Below are positions 1 through 55,483 of a stretch of DNA of 55,483 nt, piece by piece (position 1 is the stretch's first letter; every line of letters begins with the position of its first letter). Source of the DNA: a virus; the IMG/VR virus record IMGVR_UViG_3300015192_000002, positions 1-55,483 of that record; one strand, 5' to 3'. Under the pieces are notes generated by a model. The model was given only the letters and a program-made list of their open reading frames with translations. It made no database searches and was not told the origin of the DNA. Position numbers and translations under genes: made by a program.

Positions 1-113
1 TGCTCGAAAGCCCGCTCCATGAAAGCTTCAAACACGCGAGGGTTTCGGGCGAATGGTTCCGTCCGACCGAGGGCCTGCTGGCACTAATCGGCGGCCTCGT
101 AAAGTGCGTTTAG
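1..113 (+). CDS. 3' end of the GIY-YIG/T5orf172-like gene (second copy)
   Basis: These bases carry the last codons of the gene at 54849-55457, because the window wraps round a circular genome. Bases 14-113 are identical to 55358-55457, ending in the same TAG stop. Bases 1-13 do not align cleanly with 55345-55357, which looks like a low-quality contig end. It is not a separate gene. Confidence 0.85.
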   Translation, partial: LESPLHESFKHARVSGEWFRPTEGLLALIGGLVKCV

Positions 114-139
114 CGACCAAGCGGTTGACTGCTAACAAA
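14..139 (+). repeat. terminal direct repeat, left copy (assembly overlap)
   Basis: This 126-bp stretch is identical to 55358-55483. Since it holds a gene's 3' end that continues seamlessly at the other side, it is best read as overlap of a circular or circularly permuted genome and not as a biological terminal repeat. Unique length is about 55,344 bp. Confidence 0.9.
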
Positions 140-153
140 AACGGCTGTAGAAA
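125..153 (+). promoter_or_regulatory. probable sigma70-type promoter upstream of the sspB-like gene
   Basis: TTGACT (125-130) and TAGAAA (148-153) are separated by 17 bp. They sit in an unusually AT-rich stretch between the converged end of the early rightward genes and the SspB-like gene at 228. It would start a transcript near 160 that could carry the small genes and possibly the late genes. The -10 box is imperfect. Confidence 0.5.
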
Positions 154-227: not shown

Positions 228-629
228 ATGGGCGACGTGCTTGAGTTCAAGCCGCGCCGGTCCACCACCACCGTTTCCGCTGGTCCGCTGCCCCCGAACG
301 AAAAGCGCGACGCGCTCCTGCGCATCCTCGACACGGGCGTCGCGATGGTGCACCTCGATGCAAGGCTTCCCGGCGTGGCCGTCCCGGCGCAGTACGCTGG
401 CGACTATCACCTGCGGCTGAAGTTCTCCTGGAAGTACCGCATCCACGATCTCGACATCGGTGCGGAGAAGGTGGTCGGCTCGCTGTCGTTCTCTGGCAGA
501 AGCTTCCGCGTCGAGCTTCCGTGGGCAGCCATCTTCGCCATCACCAGCGAGTCCCGCCGGGAGATGTCCGAGCACTGGCTCAAGGATGTGCCGACCGAGC
601 TGGTGCAGGCCAAGCCTGACGCCGGCTGA
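228..629 (+). CDS. SspB-like ClpXP specificity adaptor
   Basis: Predicted adaptor of 133 aa that would bind ssrA-tagged peptides and hand them to ClpXP in the cytoplasm. Residues 38-106 have the SspB pattern: VHLDARLPGV-VP at 41-53, alternating strands, an LSFSG turn at 86-90 and PWAAIFAI at 98-105. The family fold is short, and this length is slightly under that of cellular SspB. The charged tail after residue 110 shows no obvious LRVVK-like ClpX-binding motif, so coupling to ClpX is uncertain. The ATG follows a 70-base untranslated leader after the promoter at 125-153. The gene is far from the integrase, yet the phage attachment site matches ssrA, the gene for the tag that SspB reads. Assignment is by motif reading, not alignment. 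Confidence 0.72.
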   Translation: MGDVLEFKPRRSTTTVSAGPLPPNEKRDALLRILDTGVAMVHLDARLPGVAVPAQYAGDYHLRLKFSWKYRIHDLDIGAEKVVGSLSFSGRSFRVELPWAAIFAITSESRREMSEHWLKDVPTELVQAKPDAG

Positions 630-630
630 A

Positions 631-900
631 ATGCGCCTCCTCCACTACAGCGACAAGCCGCTGGCCGCGACGCCGCGGGCCACCTGGCAGCCGTACAAAC
701 ACAACGGTCGCGGGACGGTCGTGATCCGCTGTCCGTCCTGTGCAAAGGCCATGAGCCTGCCGCACCACCGGATCGACCACGACGGGGTAGTGCTGCAGCC
801 GGTGACCTGCCCGTTTGTGAAGACCGGGCGCTGTACGATGAAGAAGGCCAAGCTCGTGCTGCTCGGCTGGATCGAGCACTGGGCGCAGGCTCCGAACTGA
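631..900 (+). CDS. small Cys-rich protein, possible zinc ribbon
   Basis: 89 aa, starting one base after the SspB-like stop codon, so probably co-transcribed and translationally coupled. Cysteines occur as CPSC near residue 35 and as C-x7-C near residue 62, with a His pair between them, which suggests a metal-binding knuckle. The C-terminus is hydrophobic/aromatic (LLGWIEHWAQ). No family recognised. Confidence 0.6.
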   Translation: MRLLHYSDKPLAATPRATWQPYKHNGRGTVVIRCPSCAKAMSLPHHRIDHDGVVLQPVTCPFVKTGRCTMKKAKLVLLGWIEHWAQAPN

Positions 901-3408: not shown

Positions 3409-3430
3409 AAATACGCTTTTCAGTGTATTT
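3409..3430 (+). promoter_or_regulatory. AT-rich stem-loop upstream of terminase (cos or TerS-site candidate)
   Basis: The 134-bp gap 3325-3458 between HNH and terminase genes contains an 8-bp inverted repeat, AAATACGC with GTGTATTT (one G-T pair), around a TTTTCA loop. The surrounding 60 bp are much richer in AT than the genome. HNH/terminase phages usually keep cos or the terminase-binding site here. A promoter or leader hairpin is equally possible. Confidence 0.35.
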
Positions 3431-3458
3431 CGCCCTTTGCAAATTTGAGGTAGCACGA

Positions 3459-3968
3459 ATGCCTGTCCCGCCCGGCTCAACGAAGGCGCGGGTGCCTACG
3501 GCGCTCAAATTGCTCAGGGGGACCCTGAACAAGTCCCGAGAGGCAAAGCAGTCCCGCAGCCCGCCAGCCGTCACGCTGGGCATTCCGGATGCGCCGGATC
3601 ACCTCGACGAAGAGGAGTCGGCGGCGTGGGAGCGGTTCGCGCGGATCCTCTCCCCTCTGCGGGTGTGCGCGCAGGAAGATTTCGCGGCGCTCGAGTCGCT
3701 GGTGACGGCGTGGGTGCAGGTGCAGCGGCTGCGCGCCGAGCTGCGCGCCGATGCGGCAGCCGGGGACAAGAAGCTGACCTACGAGTCGGTCAACGATAAG
3801 GGCGCGACCATGCAGCGCGTCAAGCCTGCCGTGACCGCCCTCAACGAAGTGGATCGGCGCCTCAAGGACTGGCTCGGACGGTTCGGGTTGACGCCGGCGG
3901 ATCGCGGACGGGTGAGCGCGGACACCGATGGGAAGAAAGCCGGGGACAGGGAAGCCGAGTTCGCGTAA
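3459..3968 (+). CDS. terminase small subunit, P27-like
   Basis: 169 aa. The N-terminus VPTALKLLRGTLNKSR matches the P27 small-terminase signature, followed by a helical domain and a C-terminal helix (AVTALNEVDRRLKDWLGRFGLTPADRGRV). ATG 3459 is preferred over the upstream ATG 3423 because of the GAGG motif just ahead and the family's usual N-terminus. It recognises phage DNA and feeds the large subunit, whose gene overlaps it by 41 bp. Confidence 0.82.
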   Translation: MPVPPGSTKARVPTALKLLRGTLNKSREAKQSRSPPAVTLGIPDAPDHLDEEESAAWERFARILSPLRVCAQEDFAALESLVTAWVQVQRLRAELRADAAAGDKKLTYESVNDKGATMQRVKPAVTALNEVDRRLKDWLGRFGLTPADRGRVSADTDGKKAGDREAEFA

Positions 3969-5868
3969 GCCCAAGAGCGCTCGCGTTGAGTTGGGTCCGG
4001 CCTCGCTCGACGCGATCGAGGAAGCCGCCGCGCCGCTGCCGCCGCGGGACGTCCACGTCGCGAAGGCGCTGCAGTACATCGACGATGTTCTCTCGGGCGG
4101 GGTGTTGGCCTGCAAGTACGTCAGGCAAGCCTGCCAGCGGCAACGCAACGACCTCGAGCGCTACAAGGACAGCGCCGTCTTCGCCTTTGACCCGGACCTC
4201 GCCGGCCGCGTCTGTCGCTTCATCGAGCTCCTGCCCCACACGCAGGGGCCGGACGCCAGCGACCTCGAGAACGGGGAGCCGAACTGCGTCGTCCTGCAGC
4301 CGTGGCAGTGCTTCATCCTGACGACGGTCTTCGGTTGGCGGAGGAAGGACACTGGTGGCCGGCGCTACCGCAAGGCATACGTCGAGGTGCCCCGCGGCAA
4401 CGGCAAGAGCTTCCTGCTCTCCGGTGTGGCGATCTACGGGCTGACCTCGGACGGCGAGCAGGGACCCGAGAACTACAGCGCCGCGACCACCAAGGAGCAG
4501 TCGCAAAAGGTGTTCGAGGTGGCGCAGCAGATGCTCCGGCGGAAGCCGGCATTCGCGGCCAAGATCGGCGCGGTCGTCAACGAGCACGCGATCCTGTGCC
4601 CGAAGAACAACGGGAAGTTTTTCGCGCTCTCCAGGGAGGCCGGGCGCAGCGGCGACGGCAAGAACCCGCATGTAGCCGTGGTGGACGAACTGCACGCGCA
4701 CAAGACGCGGGCGATCTACGACGTCCTCAAGACGGCGATGGCGAAGAGGACCGCCTCGCTCTTGTTCGTCATCACGACGGCGGGATTCGACACCTCGGGT
4801 ATCTGCTATGAGGTCCGTAGCTTCTGCGCGAAGATGCTCGCGGGCGAGGCGACGGACGAGTCGCAATTTGCGATCATCTACACGCTGGACGACGGGGACG
4901 ACTGGCTCGACGAGGTCCTCTGGAAGAAGGCCAACCCGAACTGGGGCGTATCGGTACAGCCGGACTCGTTCGCGTCTGACGCAGCCCAGGCCGCGCAGAT
5001 CCCGTCCGAGCAGAACAACTTCAAGACCAAGCACCTCGGCGTCTGGTGCAACGCCGACCGGCCGTGGATGGACATGAAAGCGTGGGACCTCTGCGGAGAC
5101 CCTGCGCTCGACCGGGCCGACTTCACCGGGCAGCCGTGCATGATCGGCCTAGACCTCGCCAGCAAGGTGGACATCGCCGCGAAGGCGTCGGTCTTCTGGA
5201 AAGACCTGATGGTCGAGGTCTGCGGAGCCTGCGGGAATCACGCCGACCGCCATCCGGTGGCGATCCCCGCGAAGAAAGACGCGCCGGGTTTCATCTGCGA
5301 GGCCGCGGCAACGTCCGAATCGAAAGCTGAGCGGCACTACTACCTCTTCGTTGACTCCTATCTACCCGAGGCCAAAATCTCGGAGTCGCGCAATTCGCAG
5401 TACGCCGGGTGGGTGCGCGAGGGGTGCATCACCACCACCCCCGGCGACGTGACCGACTTCGGAGTCATCCGGGACCAGATCATCGCCGACCGTTCCCGAT
5501 TCGATCTGCGTGAGGTCGCCTACGACGAATGGCAGGCCGTCCAGCTTGCGCAGGAGATGGAAGCGTCCGGGTTGAAGACGGTGAAGGTGCCGCAGAACAG
5601 CCGGCACCTCAGCGCGCCGATGAAGGAAGCCGAGGCGCTGGTGCTTTCGCGGCGGCTACATCACGACGGGAATCCGGCGATGCGCTGGATGGTGAGCAAC
5701 GTGGTGGCGCACGAGGACGAGCACGGCATGGTGAGGCCCACCAAGATGGTCCCCGAGAACAAGATCGACGGGCCGGTGGCGTTCTTCTCGGTGATGCGGT
5801 TGGCGATGCTCGTCGGTGCGGACACAACGTCTTCGTATCTCGAGACCGGGGAGCTTCTGACCGTATGA
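3928..5868 (+). CDS. terminase large subunit
   Basis: 646-aa DNA-packaging motor. ATPase: Walker A-like VPRGNGKS at 154-161 and Walker B VVDELHAH at 251-258, with ITTAG (282-286) as coupling motif. The RNase H-like nuclease begins at GLDLASKVD (407-415), where Asp409 is the likely metal ligand. Between nuclease strands there is an insert with Cys432, Cys435, His438, His442 and Cys457 that could bind zinc. Long for the Terminase_1 type partly because of this insert. The start overlaps the small subunit. Confidence 0.95.
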   Translation: MGRKPGTGKPSSRKPKSARVELGPASLDAIEEAAAPLPPRDVHVAKALQYIDDVLSGGVLACKYVRQACQRQRNDLERYKDSAVFAFDPDLAGRVCRFIELLPHTQGPDASDLENGEPNCVVLQPWQCFILTTVFGWRRKDTGGRRYRKAYVEVPRGNGKSFLLSGVAIYGLTSDGEQGPENYSAATTKEQSQKVFEVAQQMLRRKPAFAAKIGAVVNEHAILCPKNNGKFFALSREAGRSGDGKNPHVAVVDELHAHKTRAIYDVLKTAMAKRTASLLFVITTAGFDTSGICYEVRSFCAKMLAGEATDESQFAIIYTLDDGDDWLDEVLWKKANPNWGVSVQPDSFASDAAQAAQIPSEQNNFKTKHLGVWCNADRPWMDMKAWDLCGDPALDRADFTGQPCMIGLDLASKVDIAAKASVFWKDLMVEVCGACGNHADRHPVAIPAKKDAPGFICEAAATSESKAERHYYLFVDSYLPEAKISESRNSQYAGWVREGCITTTPGDVTDFGVIRDQIIADRSRFDLREVAYDEWQAVQLAQEMEASGLKTVKVPQNSRHLSAPMKEAEALVLSRRLHHDGNPAMRWMVSNVVAHEDEHGMVRPTKMVPENKIDGPVAFFSVMRLAMLVGADTTSSYLETGELLTV

Positions 5869-7438: not shown

Positions 7439-7629
7439 GCGCAGACGCAGACAGTCGGGTCGAGGAAGCCGAGCGGCGCGCGAGAGATGCTGCGGCCGAA
7501 CTTCTCGAAGAGCGCGCGCTCAACATGCGGGCGAGCGGTATCGAGGCGCAGCGGACCGCCGACGCCGAGGACCGCATCCGGCGGCTGGAGGCGCTGCTGC
7601 GAGCGCACGAGATCGAGGTCCCGACATGA
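7435..7629 (+). CDS. small coiled-coil protein
   Basis: 64 aa, nearly all charged helix (VEEAERRARDAAAELLEERA, then DAEDRIRRLEALLRAHEIE). ATGA overlaps join it to portal and protease genes. It may be a scaffold-like helper of head assembly, judging only from position and helix content. Confidence 0.6.
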   Translation: MSADADSRVEEAERRARDAAAELLEERALNMRASGIEAQRTADAEDRIRRLEALLRAHEIEVPT

Positions 7630-8594
7630 AGAAGATGACCGACGTCAAATTCGCCACCGAGATGATCCCGCACCACCAGATGGCGATCGACATGGCGAAC
7701 GGCCTCTTGGGGTCTGGCACTGAACCCGCTCCCGAGATCGCGGCGATCGCCAGGAACATCCTCGTCACACAGCGGGCCGAGATCGACGAAATGCAGAAGT
7801 GGCTCGACTCCAGGGGCGATGACGCCCAAACGAAATCTTCCCCCAGGAGGGGCGGCGGTATGGACCTCAAAAACAAGAAGTCAGCACGTCCGGAGCGGAG
7901 CTTTGCCATCACCCGTCTGGAGATCAAGAAGGCCTCGCCCGACGGCAAGGTGGACGGCGAGGCCGGCGAACCCGACGGCAGCTTCGACGGATACGGGGCG
8001 CTCTTCAACAGCCCGCATCCGACCTCGGCGTGGAGCCTGCCTCCGGACTGGATGGACCTCGTCGCTCCGGGTGCATTCAAGCGCACGATGGGCGAGCACA
8101 AGGCGCGCGGCACGATGCCTGCCCTCCTCTGGATGCACGACCTCGCGGACCCGATGGGCGCGTGGAACGACATCTCAGAGGACAAGATCGGACTGGCGGT
8201 GGACGGCCAGCTCTGCCTCGACGTCCAGACGATCAAGGACCGGCATGCGCTGATGAAGATGGGAGCGGCCAAGGGGCTCTCCATCGGCTTCGTGCCGGTG
8301 AAGACCGAGATCGACGAGAAGGCCAAGCAGCGGCGGATCCTCGACGTGGACCTCTTCGAGATCAGCGTGGTGACGATCCCCGGGGATCCTTCCGCTGGTG
8401 TAACCGACATGAAGTCTTTCGATCCGAGCAACATCCGAGAATTGGAGGGCGCCCTGCGTGACGCGGGCCTGTCCTCCACCGAGGCCAAGCGGCTTCTCGC
8501 CGGTGGCTTCAAGGCTCTCTCGCAGCGTGACGCTGACGACGATGAGACCGCGCAGGCGTTCGAGAAGCTGATGAAGGCGCTGAAGGGCGAGTAG
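7626..8594 (+). CDS. DUF305 domain fused to HK97-type prohead protease
   Basis: 322 aa. Residues 1-62 form a DUF305 module: FATEMIPHHQMAIDMA near the start, then NILVTQRAEIDEMQKWL. After a basic linker, residues 85-240 are the capsid maturation (HK97 prohead) protease: FDGYGALFN, the LLWMHDL His region, MGAAKGLSIGFVPV with its Ser, and LFEISVVTIPGDPSAGV. DUF305 proteins are usually exported copper-associated proteins; there is no signal peptide here. The protease also has its own ribosome site inside the frame (ATG 7860), so two products are likely. It lies between portal and capsid genes as expected for the protease. Confidence 0.85.
   Translation: MKKMTDVKFATEMIPHHQMAIDMANGLLGSGTEPAPEIAAIARNILVTQRAEIDEMQKWLDSRGDDAQTKSSPRRGGGMDLKNKKSARPERSFAITRLEIKKASPDGKVDGEAGEPDGSFDGYGALFNSPHPTSAWSLPPDWMDLVAPGAFKRTMGEHKARGTMPALLWMHDLADPMGAWNDISEDKIGLAVDGQLCLDVQTIKDRHALMKMGAAKGLSIGFVPVKTEIDEKAKQRRILDVDLFEISVVTIPGDPSAGVTDMKSFDPSNIRELEGALRDAGLSSTEAKRLLAGGFKALSQRDADDDETAQAFEKLMKALKGE
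7845..7862 (+). promoter_or_regulatory. internal Shine-Dalgarno and in-frame start for the protease
   Basis: AGGAGG at 7845-7850 is 9 bases ahead of an ATG at 7860-7862, codon 79 of the fusion frame. It would give a 244-aa protease without DUF305. This is the best ribosome site in the local region, better than that at 7626, which relies on an ATGA overlap. Confidence 0.6.
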
Positions 8595-28276: not shown

Positions 28277-28572
28277 CCAAAAAGAAGAAGGCGGCCGAGG
28301 AAGAGGGGGCGGCCAAGAAGCAGGTCGAGACGGACCGACGCGAGGACGAGCGCCACCGCGCCGACGTGGCACTGAGCCTCGCGAGCGTCTTCTGGCACCT
28401 CACCCAGGACAACGGCGTCGGCCCGGCAGAGAGAGACGTGCTCGGCATGATCATGCACCGCCTGCGCGACGTGCTGCGGGATGGTCCGTGCCCGGCGTGC
28501 ATGGAGATCGCCCTCGGAAAGCAACTCGACAGCGACATGCGGCGCGACATCCCGGCGGAGGCGAAGAAATGA
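28267..28572 (+). CDS. Lys-rich N-terminus hypothetical protein
   Basis: 101 aa from GTG 28267, overlapping the phosphoesterase end. It opens with AKKKKAAEEEGAAKK and ends with a helical domain carrying CPAC. Coupled to the guanylate kinase gene by ATGA. Function unknown. Confidence 0.6.
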   Translation: MAVAKKKKAAEEEGAAKKQVETDRREDERHRADVALSLASVFWHLTQDNGVGPAERDVLGMIMHRLRDVLRDGPCPACMEIALGKQLDSDMRRDIPAEAKK

Positions 28573-29114
28573 GCCACCGCCTATTCTGCATCGTCGGCGC
28601 CTCTGGTGTGGGGAAGACCACCCTCGCGCGCGGCCTCGCTCGCAACGGAGTCCCCGAGGTGGTCAGCCACACCAGCCGCCCGCCGAGGAGGGGCGAGATC
28701 GACGGCGTCGCCTACCGATTCGTCACCCCGGCTGACTTTGAAGAGCTGGTCTACCGAGGGTCGATGCTGGAGCATGTCACCTACGGAGGCCACTCCTACG
28801 GGGTCAGCAGGCTGGCCGTGGCGGATGCCCTCGCGGAAGGCCCTGCCTGCGTGGTGGTCGAGGCGAAGGGGGCAGCGCAGTTGAAGGGCGAGCTCGGCCC
28901 AACCGCCTGCGTCCTCTTCCTTGCCGCGCCAGCGCTCGACGTCCTGCGGCTGCGGATGGCTGCTCGCGGAGACTCAGCAGCGGCGATCGAGGCGAGGCTC
29001 GCGACGGTGGACGCGGAAGTGAGCGCAGGCCTGCGGGTGGCCGAGCATGTGATCTTCCCGGCGAGCGAGGCGGAGACGTTGCGGCGGGTGCTGAAGATCA
29101 TCGACGCGCAGTAG
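28569..29114 (+). CDS. guanylate kinase-like nucleotide kinase
   Basis: 181 aa. P-loop GASGVGKT (10-17), SHTSRPPRRGEIDGVAYRFVT with the GMP-binding Ser/Arg, DFEELV, and LEHVTYGGHSYGV all match guanylate kinase. Slightly short (cellular enzymes about 200 aa) with a reduced lid. It would phosphorylate GMP or dGMP and last gene of the rightward block before attP. Confidence 0.88.
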   Translation: MSHRLFCIVGASGVGKTTLARGLARNGVPEVVSHTSRPPRRGEIDGVAYRFVTPADFEELVYRGSMLEHVTYGGHSYGVSRLAVADALAEGPACVVVEAKGAAQLKGELGPTACVLFLAAPALDVLRLRMAARGDSAAAIEARLATVDAEVSAGLRVAEHVIFPASEAETLRRVLKIIDAQ

Positions 29115-29117
29115 CGG

Positions 29118-29306
29118 TCAGCCCACCACCTCGATCGCCAGCCAGCCCCAGTCGGCCTTCTGTTTGGCGCGCTCGATGGCCGCAGCGATGTCGTGGGCGC
29201 GGTCGGTGAGGACAGTGCGTACACGATCCGCCTGAACGTGCCGATGTGCCCATATAACTAGTAGCATCGGTCGCAGTCGGTCCTGAGTGATTCCGGCGCG
29301 TTGCAC
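29118..29306 (-). CDS. small hypothetical protein next to attP
   Basis: 62 aa from GTG, convergent with the guanylate kinase gene. ERAKQKADWGWLAIEVV looks like real protein and there is no competing frame. It ends the leftward integration block. Confidence 0.4.
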   Translation of the reverse strand: MQRAGITQDRLRPMLLVIWAHRHVQADRVRTVLTDRAHDIAAAIERAKQKADWGWLAIEVVG

Positions 29307-29343
29307 GGACGCATCCAGATTCGTCCAGACGCCAGATAAGGCC

Positions 29344-29373
29344 GGACGCGGGTTCGATTCCCGCCGCCTCCAC
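29344..29373 (+). mobile_element. attP core matching the 3' end of a tmRNA (ssrA) gene
   Basis: The 30 bp begin GGACGCGGGTTCGATTCCC and end CCGCCTCCAC. They hold a perfect T-arm (GCGGG, TTCGATT loop, CCCGC) plus the 3' acceptor strand of a typical one-piece tmRNA. It lies beside the integrase, where attP is expected. The phage continues with TCTG instead of CCA, followed by TTTTT. A tRNA 3' end is the alternative; GGACGCGG ahead of the T-arm favours ssrA. Confidence 0.8.
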
Positions 29374-29381
29374 TCTGTTTT

Positions 29382-29654
29382 TCACTCTATGACTCGCTGC
29401 GGTGTACCCACCACTGTCCCCACCGCCGCGCTGGCCGGTTCAGCCGGGACGAGAACAACTCTCACGGGCGGCGCGTTCGGGCAGCCCCACGCCCGCCCGG
29501 ATGAGTGAAGGTGGGTTCCGGCGTGGCCGGAGCGAAGGCAGCAGCCGTAGCCGACTCCGTCCGCGCCCGGCCCCGACCAGACCCGGCAGCCACTTCCGCT
29601 GGGGGCGAAGAAAACGCCAACGCCATCCGCACTGGTCGGCCATTCGAGCGTCAT
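29382..29654 (-). CDS. small hypothetical protein downstream of integrase
   Basis: 90 aa starting in an ATGA overlap with the integrase stop. Cys-containing centre (GSGCRVWSGPGADGVGYGCC, then HAGTHLHSSGRAWGC) suggests a small metal site. The upstream part of the open frame is a shadow of integrase. It ends 9 bp from the attP core. Confidence 0.55.
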   Translation of the reverse strand: MTLEWPTSADGVGVFFAPSGSGCRVWSGPGADGVGYGCCLRSGHAGTHLHSSGRAWGCPNAPPVRVVLVPAEPASAAVGTVVGTPQRVIE

Positions 29655-30853
29655 CGTTTCGCCTTCGCGGCCACCGGCCGCCGCTGCACCTTGAGGCACT
29701 GCACCTGCGCGCACAGCCGCGCCCAGCCGAACGACGTGTAAGCCTCCATCACGTCTCGCCCCGCCCCGTGGGTACAAAGCCGCAGGATGTCCCGATCCGC
29801 GCCGTCCTCTCGCGCGAGCGTGATCGCGGTGCGCCTGGTGTCGTGCACCCGCCTCCCCGCCCAGCCGAACGCCTCCAGGTCCTTGCGCAGCCGCTTCCAT
29901 GAGTCGTGCTCCGAGCGCATCCCGCCGAACACGACGCGCCTGCCTCTGTTGGTGGGCCTTGGGTGCGGGACGATCAGATCATCTGCCGTCGGGGCACGGT
30001 CTTGCTGCGACGCCCAGCCTGAGAGCTTCCACTCGGCCAGCATCGCGGCGAGTACGGGGTGCAGCGGCATCCACCGCTCGACCTCGGTCTTGGTCGTGCC
30101 GTCGTCGTAGCTCGTCGCCACCACCATGCGCCCGAGCGGCTGCAGGCCGGTGACTAGGTGCCGCCAGCGCAGGCCCGCCGCCTCGCCGTGCCGGAGCATC
30201 CCGAGGAAGAGCAGGCCGTAGAACACGCGCCGGTCCCACGGCACCCGCTCATCGCTGATCAGCTGCTCCAACTCGTCGCGGGTGAAGATGGCCTGCGCGC
30301 GCCACTCCGTTTTCCCGTCGCGGATCTTACCGAGCTGGTGCGAGGTGAGGATGCACGGCGAGGCGTCGATCAGCCCGTCGATCTGCGCATCCCGAAAAAG
30401 CGACTTGAGGACGGAGTAGATGTTCCGCACCGTGCGCGGGGCTGGCGCTGGAATCGCGGCCCGCACGCCGCGGATCAGTTCTGCCACGTGCCGGGCGCGC
30501 ACGTCCTCGAGCGGCATCGAGCCGATCGCCGGGTAGACGTGCGTCGCGAGTCGCGACAGATCGTCATCCCAGGAGGCGATCCCGTCCGCCTTCCGGCGAG
30601 GCACCCAGCGCTCGCCGTAGCTCTCCACGGTGCACGCGGTGCCGGGGGCTATTCCCAACTCCAGCCCCGCGTCGAGGCGGTCCTGCGCGAGCCGGCGGAA
30701 GGCTGCGGCCTTCGCCCCGTCCGGATCGTCCGCGAGCATGTAGGGCGTCTTGAGTTTCTTCCAGCCGCCGCGCTTGCGCTCCACGGCGAGTCTCATCCAA
30801 AGCCGCTGACCACGAGCGGAGATGTACCTCGGCAGCTGCATTCTGCGCCTCAT
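29651..30853 (-). CDS. int: tyrosine integrase
   Basis: 400 aa site-specific recombinase. N-terminal arm/core-binding region, then catalytic Arg in FLGMLRHGEAAGLRW, His337-x-x-Arg340 in HDTRRT, His362 in CTHGAGRD and nucleophile Tyr372 in VMEAYTSF. ATG 30853 is chosen because it overlaps the excisionase-like stop (ATGA). With attP nearby it should integrate at ssrA. Confidence 0.92.
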   Translation of the reverse strand: MRRRMQLPRYISARGQRLWMRLAVERKRGGWKKLKTPYMLADDPDGAKAAAFRRLAQDRLDAGLELGIAPGTACTVESYGERWVPRRKADGIASWDDDLSRLATHVYPAIGSMPLEDVRARHVAELIRGVRAAIPAPAPRTVRNIYSVLKSLFRDAQIDGLIDASPCILTSHQLGKIRDGKTEWRAQAIFTRDELEQLISDERVPWDRRVFYGLLFLGMLRHGEAAGLRWRHLVTGLQPLGRMVVATSYDDGTTKTEVERWMPLHPVLAAMLAEWKLSGWASQQDRAPTADDLIVPHPRPTNRGRRVVFGGMRSEHDSWKRLRKDLEAFGWAGRRVHDTRRTAITLAREDGADRDILRLCTHGAGRDVMEAYTSFGWARLCAQVQCLKVQRRPVAAKAKR

Positions 30854-31215
30854 CTGCCCGTCCCTCGGGCATGGCGCAGAGACTTCTCCAACTCGCCCCG
30901 GATGTCCACCGGCACCGCCGACTTCTCGCCGGAGAGCCAGCACTGCAGGTCCCGCGCGTCGATCAGCCACTCTCGGCTACCGGCGGGCTTCTGGGCGCGC
31001 AGCTTCTTCGCCTTGATCGCGCGGCGCAGGGTATCGGGGTGCATGTTGCCGGCGAGCTGCGCGGCGTGGCGGATCTTGAGCCTGCCGGCCGGGAGGCGCG
31101 GGACCGGCGCGGGAACTGGCGTCGAGGCGGAGCACGCCGAGCGGATCGCGGCTTGACCCTCCGGGCTTTGCAGCGCGGCGATCATCTGCTCGCGCAGCGT
31201 CTCCTCAAAGCTCAT
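30850..31215 (-). CDS. excisionase-like HTH protein
   Basis: 121 aa, directly upstream of integrase. The centre LKIRHAAQLAGNMHPDTLRRAIKAKKL then SREWLIDARDLQCWL is a MerR/excisionase-type winged helix. It may direct excision or regulate int. ATG 31215 overlaps the upstream stop. Confidence 0.7.
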   Translation of the reverse strand: MSFEETLREQMIAALQSPEGQAAIRSACSASTPVPAPVPRLPAGRLKIRHAAQLAGNMHPDTLRRAIKAKKLRAQKPAGSREWLIDARDLQCWLSGEKSAVPVDIRGELEKSLRHARGTGR

Positions 31216-44833: not shown

Positions 44834-45364
44834 CTACTTGCGCAGGACGCGGCCTGGCCTCTTGCCCGCGTCCTGCTCGGAAGGGTTTGCGGCCTCACGC
44901 AGCGCGCGCGAACACGCCTCCATCGCGCTTGCCCTGGTGTCGTCATCGGCGATGGCGTCCAGCCTCATCGCGATGTACTTCGCTTCCTCGGTCTTCACGT
45001 AGTACGCCCCCGCGTTGTCCTTCGGGGGCAAGCTACCGCGCCGGTCTGACGTTTCTGGAAGATCCGTGGGTTGCGCCGCTGCTGGCAGCAACGCTCCCAT
45101 CTCGACCCCGAGGGCCTCGGCGAACGCCGCAAGCAGCTTCACGTTCGCCGCGCCCTTGCGCTTCCCGTTGATGATCCGGGTCACATAAGAGCGATCCTTG
45201 CCGATCTTCCTGCCGAGCTGCTTGTGGGTAAGCTTCGCCGCGTCCGCCAGCGCGCCGATGCGCTCCCCAATCTCCACCGACAGGTTGGGGTCGTCGGCCG
45301 GCGAAACGTCTTGCGGCTGCGCGGTCTTGGCCACTCCTGGCACCGTGGCGGAATTGCACATCAT
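44834..45364 (-). CDS. CI-like HTH repressor without peptidase domain
   Basis: 176 aa from ATG 45364 (45361 is an alternative). HTH_3: DAAKLTHKQLGRKIGKDRSYVTRIINGKRKG (about residues 40-70). The C-terminal 80 residues are helical and show no S24 Ser/Lys protease motif, so RecA-driven self-cleavage is unlikely. Divergent from the Cro-like gene, with operators between them, it should be the lysogeny repressor. Confidence 0.75.
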   Translation of the reverse strand: MMCNSATVPGVAKTAQPQDVSPADDPNLSVEIGERIGALADAAKLTHKQLGRKIGKDRSYVTRIINGKRKGAANVKLLAAFAEALGVEMGALLPAAAQPTDLPETSDRRGSLPPKDNAGAYYVKTEEAKYIAMRLDAIADDDTRASAMEACSRALREAANPSEQDAGKRPGRVLRK

Positions 45365-45423: not shown

Positions 45424-45648
45424 ATGGCACATCCGCTTGCGAAGTACCTCGAAGACGAAGAGCTGACCCACGAGGCGTTCGCGAAGAAGGCCGGCATCGA
45501 GCGGACCGTCGTGACGAAAGTGCTCAATGGGAAGCGCAAGCGGTTCAGCGTCGAGTACGCGCGGAGAATTGAGAAGGCCACCAGCGGCAGGGTGACGCTC
45601 GAAGACGCGCTGGGCCTGACCGCGCGCGCCAAGACCCAGGCCGCCTAG
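45424..45648 (+). CDS. Cro-like HTH repressor
   Basis: 74 aa. THEAFAKKAGIERTVVTKVLNGKRKRF is an HTH of the Cro/CI type. ATG 45424 is preferred to GTG 45406, which lies upstream of the predicted pR start. No ribosome site precedes it, consistent with leaderless translation. First gene of the rightward operon. Confidence 0.8.
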   Translation: MAHPLAKYLEDEELTHEAFAKKAGIERTVVTKVLNGKRKRFSVEYARRIEKATSGRVTLEDALGLTARAKTQAA

Positions 45649-45761: not shown

Positions 45762-46181
45762 ATGGCGAAACAGACCACCATCAACGTCCCGAAATACGAG
45801 CCCAAATTGCCTACGCTGCATGAAGCGATCGTGGATGTGATCAAGCGGTACGGCCCGCGCAAGCAGGCGGTGCTGGCGGAGCAGCTCGGCGCCAGCGAGC
45901 AGCACTTCTCCGACGTGTTCGGTGGCAAGACCGGCAAGCACTGGCCGGAGGCCTGGATTGAATTCATCGTCAAGCACTACGACTTCGAGGCGCAGGTCCC
46001 CGCGCTGGTTGCTGGCTGGCGCGGACTCACCGCGCGGCCCCCGCGCAAGCGAACGGCAGCCGAGGAACTTCGCCGGCTCAAGTACGCCCTCGCCAAGCAC
46101 AACGGACTCGGCAAGGCGATCCGCGATGAGGCCGAGGCGCTGCCCGACGATGTGTTTGCCGACGAGGAGGTGGCGACATGA
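45762..46181 (+). CDS. HTH regulator, CII-position protein
   Basis: 139 aa with GAGGGG before ATG. HEAIVDVIKRYGPRKQAVLAEQLGASEQHFSDVFGGKTGK is an HTH resembling lambda CII-like phage regulators. Location after cro and the terminator matches cII. It could activate repressor or integrase transcription; not proven. Confidence 0.65.
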   Translation: MAKQTTINVPKYEPKLPTLHEAIVDVIKRYGPRKQAVLAEQLGASEQHFSDVFGGKTGKHWPEAWIEFIVKHYDFEAQVPALVAGWRGLTARPPRKRTAAEELRRLKYALAKHNGLGKAIRDEAEALPDDVFADEEVAT

Positions 46182-46888
46182 GCAATACCGTCACGGCCGA
46201 AGACCGCGAGGAGATGCGCCTCGTGACCACCAAGGGTGTCAGCGATGCCCCGCTGCCGGAGAAGTACCAGGCCGCGAAACAAGCCCTGTCCGTCTGCCAG
46301 AGCGTTGACGAGTGCTCGACGTGGGCAAAGAAGGCCGCCGCGCTGGCGAGCTACGCCCGGCAGGCCGACGACGACTCCCTCGAAACCATGGCGATGAAGA
46401 TCCGGGCGCGGGCGATCCGTCGGTGCGGGGAACTGCTCAAGGAATTGCCGTCGAAGGCACACGGGCGAGAGGTGGGGGGGCGCCCCTCCACCTCTCAACG
46501 GTCCGAGCGAGCACAGGCGGCGACTGGCGCGGGGATGTCGCGCGATCAAGTGAAGCAGGCGGTGCGCGTCGCGAGCATCCCCGCGAAGGCGTTCGAGGCG
46601 GCAGTCGAGTCCGAGACGCCGCCTTCCATCGAAGTGCTGGCAGAGCAGGGCACCAAGAAAAAGCCGGTGCCGCTGGTGGACATCGAGGGCCGCGACCCGC
46701 GGGATTTCAACAACGCGCTGCAACTGGCCGCCGCGTTCGACGCCTTCGCAAAGCACCTGAGCACCATCACGCCAGAGGCGTTCCTTCGCGGCGCTCTCGA
46801 TCGCCATGTCGCGTTGGCGACGCGCGGCATTGCTGTGATCGAGGCGTGGGTATCCGATCTTCGCAAGAAAAACAGGAGAGCAAAATGA
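46178..46888 (+). CDS. conserved phage replication-region protein
   Basis: 236 aa. AAKQALSVCQSVDECSTWAKKAAALASYARQADDDSLETMAMKIRARAIRRCGELL is a widespread phage motif of unknown role found before replication genes. The centre has a ParB-like helix region (MSRDQVKQAVRVASIP). Confidence 0.7.
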   Translation: MSNTVTAEDREEMRLVTTKGVSDAPLPEKYQAAKQALSVCQSVDECSTWAKKAAALASYARQADDDSLETMAMKIRARAIRRCGELLKELPSKAHGREVGGRPSTSQRSERAQAATGAGMSRDQVKQAVRVASIPAKAFEAAVESETPPSIEVLAEQGTKKKPVPLVDIEGRDPRDFNNALQLAAAFDAFAKHLSTITPEAFLRGALDRHVALATRGIAVIEAWVSDLRKKNRRAK

Positions 46889-54397: not shown

Positions 54398-54852
54398 GCG
54401 CACCGATCGCAGACGAGGTGCTGCGGGAGTTGAACGCCCGAACAAAAGTGTTCGCGACCGTCCGGGGCGCCCTCGCCTGGTACGTCGCCTATGTGAGCGC
54501 CAAGATGGGGCGATCGGCATCCATGGAATCCGGCGGACACCCGGGATCCAGGGAGAAGCTCGACGAGGGTTATGCGACGTGGTCCCGCATCGCTAAGTGC
54601 CTCGTCATGTACGACAAGGACATCGACAAGGACCCGCCGCCGCTGCCGCAAAACTGGGACATCTGCCAGCGGATATGGGAGCGCCGGATTCAGCAGCTTC
54701 TCACCTATTTCTCGTCCGTCTCACACCAGCAGCGCGCGGCCGATGAGGGTGGGTTTCCCGACCTCGCCTCGTTCTCCGAGGTGGCCGAGAGGACCATGGC
54801 GAAGATCGGCGCTCGACTCCGGGCGCGCGGCGTACTCGGGGAGCGTCGATGA
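54394..54852 (+). CDS. helical protein upstream of the closing gene
   Basis: 152 aa from TTG 54394. Helical protein with FATVRGALAWYVAYVSAKMGR and QNWDICQRIWERRIQQLLTYFSSV. In this position lambdoid phages may encode late regulators; no Q family is recognised. Confidence 0.55.
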   Translation: MSAPIADEVLRELNARTKVFATVRGALAWYVAYVSAKMGRSASMESGGHPGSREKLDEGYATWSRIAKCLVMYDKDIDKDPPPLPQNWDICQRIWERRIQQLLTYFSSVSHQQRAADEGGFPDLASFSEVAERTMAKIGARLRARGVLGERR

Positions 54853-55457
54853 GGATCAAGTCGCGCACCAAGAAGGTCGCCGCCGACGTGCGGCCCAGGG
54901 TGAGCGCCAAGGAACGCAGAAAGATGCGCGCCAAGCTGCGGCTGGCCCCCTGGGATGGGTTCCCGGACGATGACGACAAGCAGCGGTCGCCGGTCAAGTG
55001 GTTGTCGGTGCGCCAAGTGGCCGAGTCGCTGGATATGACGGAGTTGCTCGCGGCTGCGTGTCTCCGTCGAGGGCACATCCCCGGGTCCGCCGTGTCGGTG
55101 GACGGCGATCTGCTGTGCGAGGCGGAGACCTTTGCCGACTGGATGGCAATCGAAAGGGGGAGGCTGGACTACAAGCTGCCGTGGGCCGAGCCGCTCGTGT
55201 ACTTCGTCCAGCAAGAGAACGCGCCGACGGCCCCCATTAAGATAGGGGTGACAACGCGGGACGGTCTGCACGCTCGATTGTCCAGCCTGCAGACGGGCAA
55301 CCCGAACAAGCTCAAGATCCTCGCGACGATGCGCGGCGACGTGAGAGACGAGGCCCGGCTCCATGAAAGCTTCAAACACGCGAGGGTTTCGGGCGAATGG
55401 TTCCGTCCGACCGAGGGCCTGCTGGCACTAATCGGCGGCCTCGTAAAGTGCGTTTAG
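54849..55457 (+). CDS. HTH plus T5orf172/GIY-YIG-like protein
   Basis: 202 aa. Residues 48-95 are an HTH_17-like region (WLSVRQVAESLDMTELLAAACL). Residues 110-195 match the T5orf172/MUG113 domain: PIKIGVTTRD, LSSLQTGNPNKLKILATM, ARLHESFKHARVSGEWF. The domain is a GIY-YIG relative and may bind or cut DNA. The gene ends at 55457 and its 3' end is repeated at 1-113. Confidence 0.75.
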   Translation: MRIKSRTKKVAADVRPRVSAKERRKMRAKLRLAPWDGFPDDDDKQRSPVKWLSVRQVAESLDMTELLAAACLRRGHIPGSAVSVDGDLLCEAETFADWMAIERGRLDYKLPWAEPLVYFVQQENAPTAPIKIGVTTRDGLHARLSSLQTGNPNKLKILATMRGDVRDEARLHESFKHARVSGEWFRPTEGLLALIGGLVKCV

Positions 55458-55483
55458 CGACCAAGCGGTTGACTGCTAACAAA
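55358..55483 (+). repeat. terminal direct repeat, right copy (assembly overlap)
   Basis: Exact copy of 14-139. It ends inside the promoter-like region found at 125-153: the TTGACT box is present at 55469-55474 but the -10 box is cut off by the end of the window. Confidence 0.9.

Follow-up and report, generated by a model that had tools for sequence, protein, structure and literature searches.

An SspB-domain protein without the ClpX-docking tail in a probably temperate phage whose attP core matches the 3' end of ssrA

This study revealed that a probably temperate phage encodes a divergent SspB-domain protein that lacks the ClpX-docking (XB) tail. The gene, hereafter sspB, lies at positions 228..629 (plus strand) of a 55,483-nt viral record, which was analysed over its whole length and is referred to as the window. 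The same genome carries an attP core that almost certainly corresponds to the 3' end of ssrA, the tmRNA gene. Phage SspB and integration at ssrA are each already known; the novelty lies in a divergent SspB that lacks XB and is encoded by a smaller, probably temperate phage. A functional link between the two features is not supported.

The ends of the record overlap, with positions 11..139 and 55355-55483 being the same at 128 of 129 nt, and the viral genome is therefore probably complete and circular, with a length of about 55.34 kb. It contains terminase, portal, prohead protease, capsid, tape measure, repressor and integrase modules, and its lifestyle is probably temperate. The small terminase subunit is encoded at 3423..3968 (plus strand; PHROG 83, 5.8e-20) and the large subunit, TerL, at 3928..5868 (plus strand; 44.6% to the TerL of Marinobacter phage AS1 in tblastn). 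The nearest relatives of the capsid protein and TerL belong to proteobacterial phages, and the integrase, which resembles that of Myxococcus phage Mx8, hints from its sequence at Myxococcota as the host group. A CI-type repressor gene at 44834..45364 (minus strand; Pfam HTH_3 6e-9, PHROG repressor 1.6e-9) is followed by a gene for a Cro/YdaS-type regulator at 45424..45648 (plus strand; Pfam YdaS 4e-8), whose product ends in TQAA. Two further proteins of the genome deserve mention. In the prohead protease (7626-8594, plus strand), a DUF305 domain (5e-17) precedes the Peptidase_S78 domain (6e-26) at the N-terminus, an unusual fusion, and its listed phage relatives align only from residue 76 or later. 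The product of 46178-46888 (plus strand) matches PHROG 33995 (1e-53) and shows a weak match, under the cut-off, to an AbiEi antitoxin C-terminal domain (6e-4); no match to it was found in the phage collection searched.

With regard to the sspB gene, the reading frame starts with ATG, is intact over 133 codons and shows phage-like codon usage. Residues 41-109 of its 133-aa product match the Pfam SspB family PF04386 (E 5e-7, 30.3 bits, exceeding the curated cut-off of 27 bits), and SspB chains in the PDB are its best sequence matches (phmmer E 2e-4). The NCBIfam SspB equivalog models give a score of 25.7 against a cut-off of 191; as the equivalog scores fall far under their cut-offs, the protein is, judging from its sequence, a distant SspB relative and not an equivalog. 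When a profile was made from 11 further SspBs, excluding the window protein, the latter scored 21.5 bits, which is the sole significant score among the window's 736 stop-to-stop frames; with the same profile, none of 2000 shuffled versions of the protein exceeded 5.6 bits. Its identity to other SspBs is 13-25%, and about 25% to E. coli SspB. No close homologue was found among phages, plasmids and IMG/VR, and when the search was extended to E values up to 10, enterobacterial SspBs were the only SspB matches. The degenerate DNA patterns for VPWxA[VIM]FA and HLDARxPGV gave 34 and 7 matches in IMG/VR, respectively, none of which was an SspB.

The structural models agree with this assignment. AlphaFold2, run with an alignment that included seven viral SspBs, predicted one helix and six strands at about 70 pLDDT over residues 21-109, with both termini disordered. 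In Foldseek, the 19 best PDB matches of this model are all SspB (top E 3.3e-6), among them complexes of SspB with ssrA and the SspB orthologues from Caulobacter and Agrobacterium. Given that true SspBs in the alignment bias the model toward the SspB fold, this moderate-confidence model provides support rather than independent proof; the single-sequence model has a pLDDT of 42, and its best four matches are SspB at E values of only 0.3-0.7. Taken with the Pfam match, these results leave very little doubt that the protein has the SspB fold, and the relationship to SspB proposed in the sequence-only reading is upheld.

The residue aligned with Ala73 of H. influenzae SspB is a leucine in the window protein. 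The A73Q substitution in H. influenzae SspB abolishes tag binding. The Caulobacter and Agrobacterium orthologues likewise have leucine in this column, and, as far as the alignment can tell, the residue cuts neither way as evidence on tag binding. Two Erwinia phage SspBs (L088 and L092) have glutamine in this column and, on sequence grounds, may bind other peptides.

The most significant difference from known SspBs is found at the C-terminus. Delivery by SspB combines a tag-binding groove with a C-terminal XB motif that binds the zinc-binding domain of ClpX (PMC12373786; for P. aeruginosa SspB, PMC13251409), and the XB peptide recruits ClpX (PMC12373786). The window protein has a short C-terminus that ends in TELVQAKPDAG, with neither an XB motif nor a long acidic linker. 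The SspBs of phages pf16, AH06, RAY, SNUABM_54 and Bobae end at or near PxLxxVK/IK, those of IMG/VR records L141-L146 end in LRVVK, LRLVK or LTRIK, and the C-termini of the aligned bacterial SspBs lie in or near PxLxxVK-like motifs. A simple frameshift was considered as the cause of the absence and was rejected, as no XB-like motif was found in the other two frames of the stretch read 3' of the sspB stop codon. Because XB is nearly universal in the other phage SspBs examined and absent here, a classical adaptor role in the delivery of ssrA-tagged proteins is doubtful. The SspB of phage LucasX lacks XB as well, however, and in view of this case the absence may not necessarily signal antagonism; chromosomal SspBs of the same subgroup might also lack the motif. 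As XB, the tested defining feature of the adaptor, is missing, we have chosen to refer to the product as an SspB-domain protein rather than an SspB adaptor.

We tentatively favour, at slightly less than even confidence, a role as a shield or antagonist rather than as an adaptor, because a domain that binds the tag but has no tether would keep substrates off ClpX or weaken host SspB dimers. In the mechanism that we propose, sspB would be an accessory, 'moron'-like gene whose product binds unfolded degron peptides in its SspB groove. Without XB, the protein would lack the usual means of tethering its cargo to the zinc-binding domain of ClpX, and proteins bearing ssrA-like tags or other degrons would be shielded from ClpXP. 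Alternatively, it could pair with host SspB and thereby weaken bivalent tethering. In either case, ClpXP turnover would be dampened or redirected during infection or lysogeny. Competitive inhibition by a phage SspB had already been suggested by the authors of the pf16 study (PMC5587285). If the degron shield is true, the window protein would be a phage-made SspB competitor, which would help to explain why unrelated phages retain the gene.

A working adaptor that contacts ClpX in another manner is a less probable but serious competitor of the shield. Such a protein would deliver degrons to ClpXP and speed up the turnover of selected proteins of the host or the phage, and the presence of an XB tail in nearly all phage SspBs examined suggests that delivery is their usual function. 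The contact might then be provided by the N-terminal motif VLEFKPRR, by a host SspB partner or by an adjacent 89-aa protein. The motif lies in the predicted disordered N-terminus and is unique among the 84 predicted proteins of the window. The gene for the 89-aa protein (631..900, plus strand) begins 1 nt past the sspB stop codon; the two are probably co-expressed, and the protein contains cysteine pairs that may form a zinc ribbon and has no match in Pfam, PHROG or PADLOC. Nevertheless, the canonical XB is absent, and a contact with ClpX through the N-terminal motif is purely putative.

The wider surroundings of sspB place the gene, together with that of the 89-aa protein, upstream of HNH, TerS and TerL, near the packaging module. 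On the joined circle it is preceded by a gene for a T5orf172/MUG113 domain protein (54849..55457, plus strand; Pfam PF13455 3e-11, PF10544 4e-7), which has its stop codon at joined position 113 and ends 114 nt before sspB. A weak candidate promoter, TTGACT-N17-TAGAAA, with 9 of 12 matches, is located ahead of sspB at 125..153 (plus strand); its score was reached in 0.7% of random 114-nt genome windows and in 2.7% of regional Markov shuffles, and a stricter promoter scan of the region ahead of sspB reported none.

It is rather unlikely that the SspB domain has been repurposed for peptide or protein binding in some unrelated role, outside ClpXP proteolysis. The low identity to other SspBs, the missing docking tail and the lack of close relatives would fit such a change of function, but conservation is good both in the LPGVxVP core and in the FSG...P..A strand region.

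The second feature, the attP core, consists of 30 nt at 29344..29373 (plus strand) that are the same as tmRNA 3' ends. These nucleotides form the matching 3' part of a match to the Rfam tmRNA family that spans 29295-29375 (E 5.8e-9, 27.6 bits) and scores below the curated cut-off of 47 bits because the 3' end of tmRNA alone is present. Of 75 other viral records with the 30-mer, 42 had it inside a tmRNA gene called by ARAGORN and none inside a tRNA gene, and the remaining 33 yielded no complete gene. Some of the 42 are permuted-type calls in which the 30-mer is not at the gene end. An origin of the core from the ssrA 3' end, rather than from a tRNA gene, is thus nearly certain. The sequence-only reading had named two results that would count against it, a protein with no structural match to SspB and an attP matching a tRNA; both were looked at and neither occurred. 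Many of the 75 records (L003-L077) have an ordinary tmRNA gene ending at the 30-mer, and several of the tmRNA tag peptides vary, AEPSFAIAA and VEENFALAA being examples.

A tyrosine integrase gene (29651..30841, minus strand; Pfam PF22022 4.6e-6, PF00589 0.0017) is separated from the attP core by 278 nt, and its closest annotated relative is the Int of Myxococcus phage Mx8, with 38% identity (tblastn 4e-61). Beside it lies a gene for a helix-turn-helix protein, a possible excisionase (30850..31215, minus strand; Pfam HTH_17 1.2e-4, below the cut-off). On the other side, a gene for a guanylate kinase-like protein (28569-29114, plus strand; PF00625 1e-19) directly adjoins attP. As attP supplies the whole T-arm/acceptor 3' strand and the tag-coding part of ssrA lies upstream of attP, integration should, by sequence, restore the tmRNA 3' end and leave ssrA working in the lysogen. 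A lysogen search with the attB 34-mer gave no lysogen and one genome contig only (L002), which is itself a mobile element. This contig, from an Actinomycetota MAG, carries the same 34-nt tmRNA end at 1806-1839, adjoining a tyrosine recombinase on the opposite strand, and the element on it probably also targets ssrA.

The sequence-only reading had combined both features into one strategy, in which a phage resident in ssrA supplies an ssrA-tag adaptor and alters the turnover of tagged or repressor proteins. The kinship with SspB and the ssrA attP on which it rested have both stood, and they do occur in one genome; the adaptor itself has become doubtful with the missing XB. None of the 75 further viral records that share the 30-nt tmRNA end gave an SspB match, nor did any of eight SspB-bearing viral records give one to tmRNA; many of these 75 and 8 records are fragments, so that a single absence is weak evidence, and jointly they offer no support for a link. 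SspB was also absent from the records of eight TerL relatives. On the circle, about 26-29 kb separate the sspB gene from attP and the integrase gene, which belong to another module, and nothing points to an operon shared by sspB and the integrase. As for repressor turnover, the CI-type repressor has no ssrA-like tail, and proteins ending in AA are not enriched (3 versus 1.7 expected); the repressor and the AA-ending phage proteins were therefore rejected as SspB/ClpX targets. With no co-occurrence elsewhere, tmRNA expected to be restored and the tail missing, the proposed strategy is very improbable. In three related IMG/VR records (L144, L145 and L146), an XB-bearing SspB occurs with a tyrosine recombinase (integrase family) elsewhere in the record; none of the three gave a match to tmRNA.

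Altogether, sspB and the ssrA attP are probably functionally unconnected, and we infer that ssrA is a common attachment site used here independently of sspB, with tmRNA kept intact. A version of the shield tied to the integration site, in which the tail-less SspB acts as a phage anti-adaptor of tmRNA quality control and keeps host proteins with ssrA tags, or others that bear degrons, from ClpXP in an ssrA-resident element, has a slim chance of being correct. The present work disposes of a link between SspB and ssrA integration that was suggestive but lacks support. It also extends a gene family found mostly in large phages by a divergent XB-less case, from a phage that is smaller and probably temperate.

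Compared with the SspB family PF04386, including the E. coli and H. influenzae proteins and the Caulobacter orthologue, the window protein has the same sequence core and the same predicted helix and six strands, but it lacks XB and the long acidic linker and adds a disordered N-terminal extension. As a SspB domain from a tailed phage, it resembles gp18 of Pseudomonas phage pf16 (PMC5587285), the cytoplasmic gp039 of Erwinia phage RAY (PMC10299810) and the other known phage SspBs, which include the Pseudomonas PA7-type protein, that of Xanthomonas phage LucasX and others in BFVD, as well as those of Erwinia and Pseudomonas jumbo phages. Known phage SspBs come mostly from phages with no reported ssrA link (PMC5587285). 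The named ones are mostly found in phages of 158-306 kb, and nearly all of those examined, though not LucasX, keep XB, whereas the window phage has about 55 kb and an integrase. Myxococcus phage Mx8, whose integrase aligns at 38% identity over 89% to that of the window phage, differs in having no SspB match. Mx8 integrates at a tRNA gene. The vcr islands of Dehalococcoides (PMC3146451) and the vrl of Dichelobacter (PMC2593044) use the tmRNA gene as their integration site, and the same is implied for the window phage by the position of its attP next to the integrase gene.
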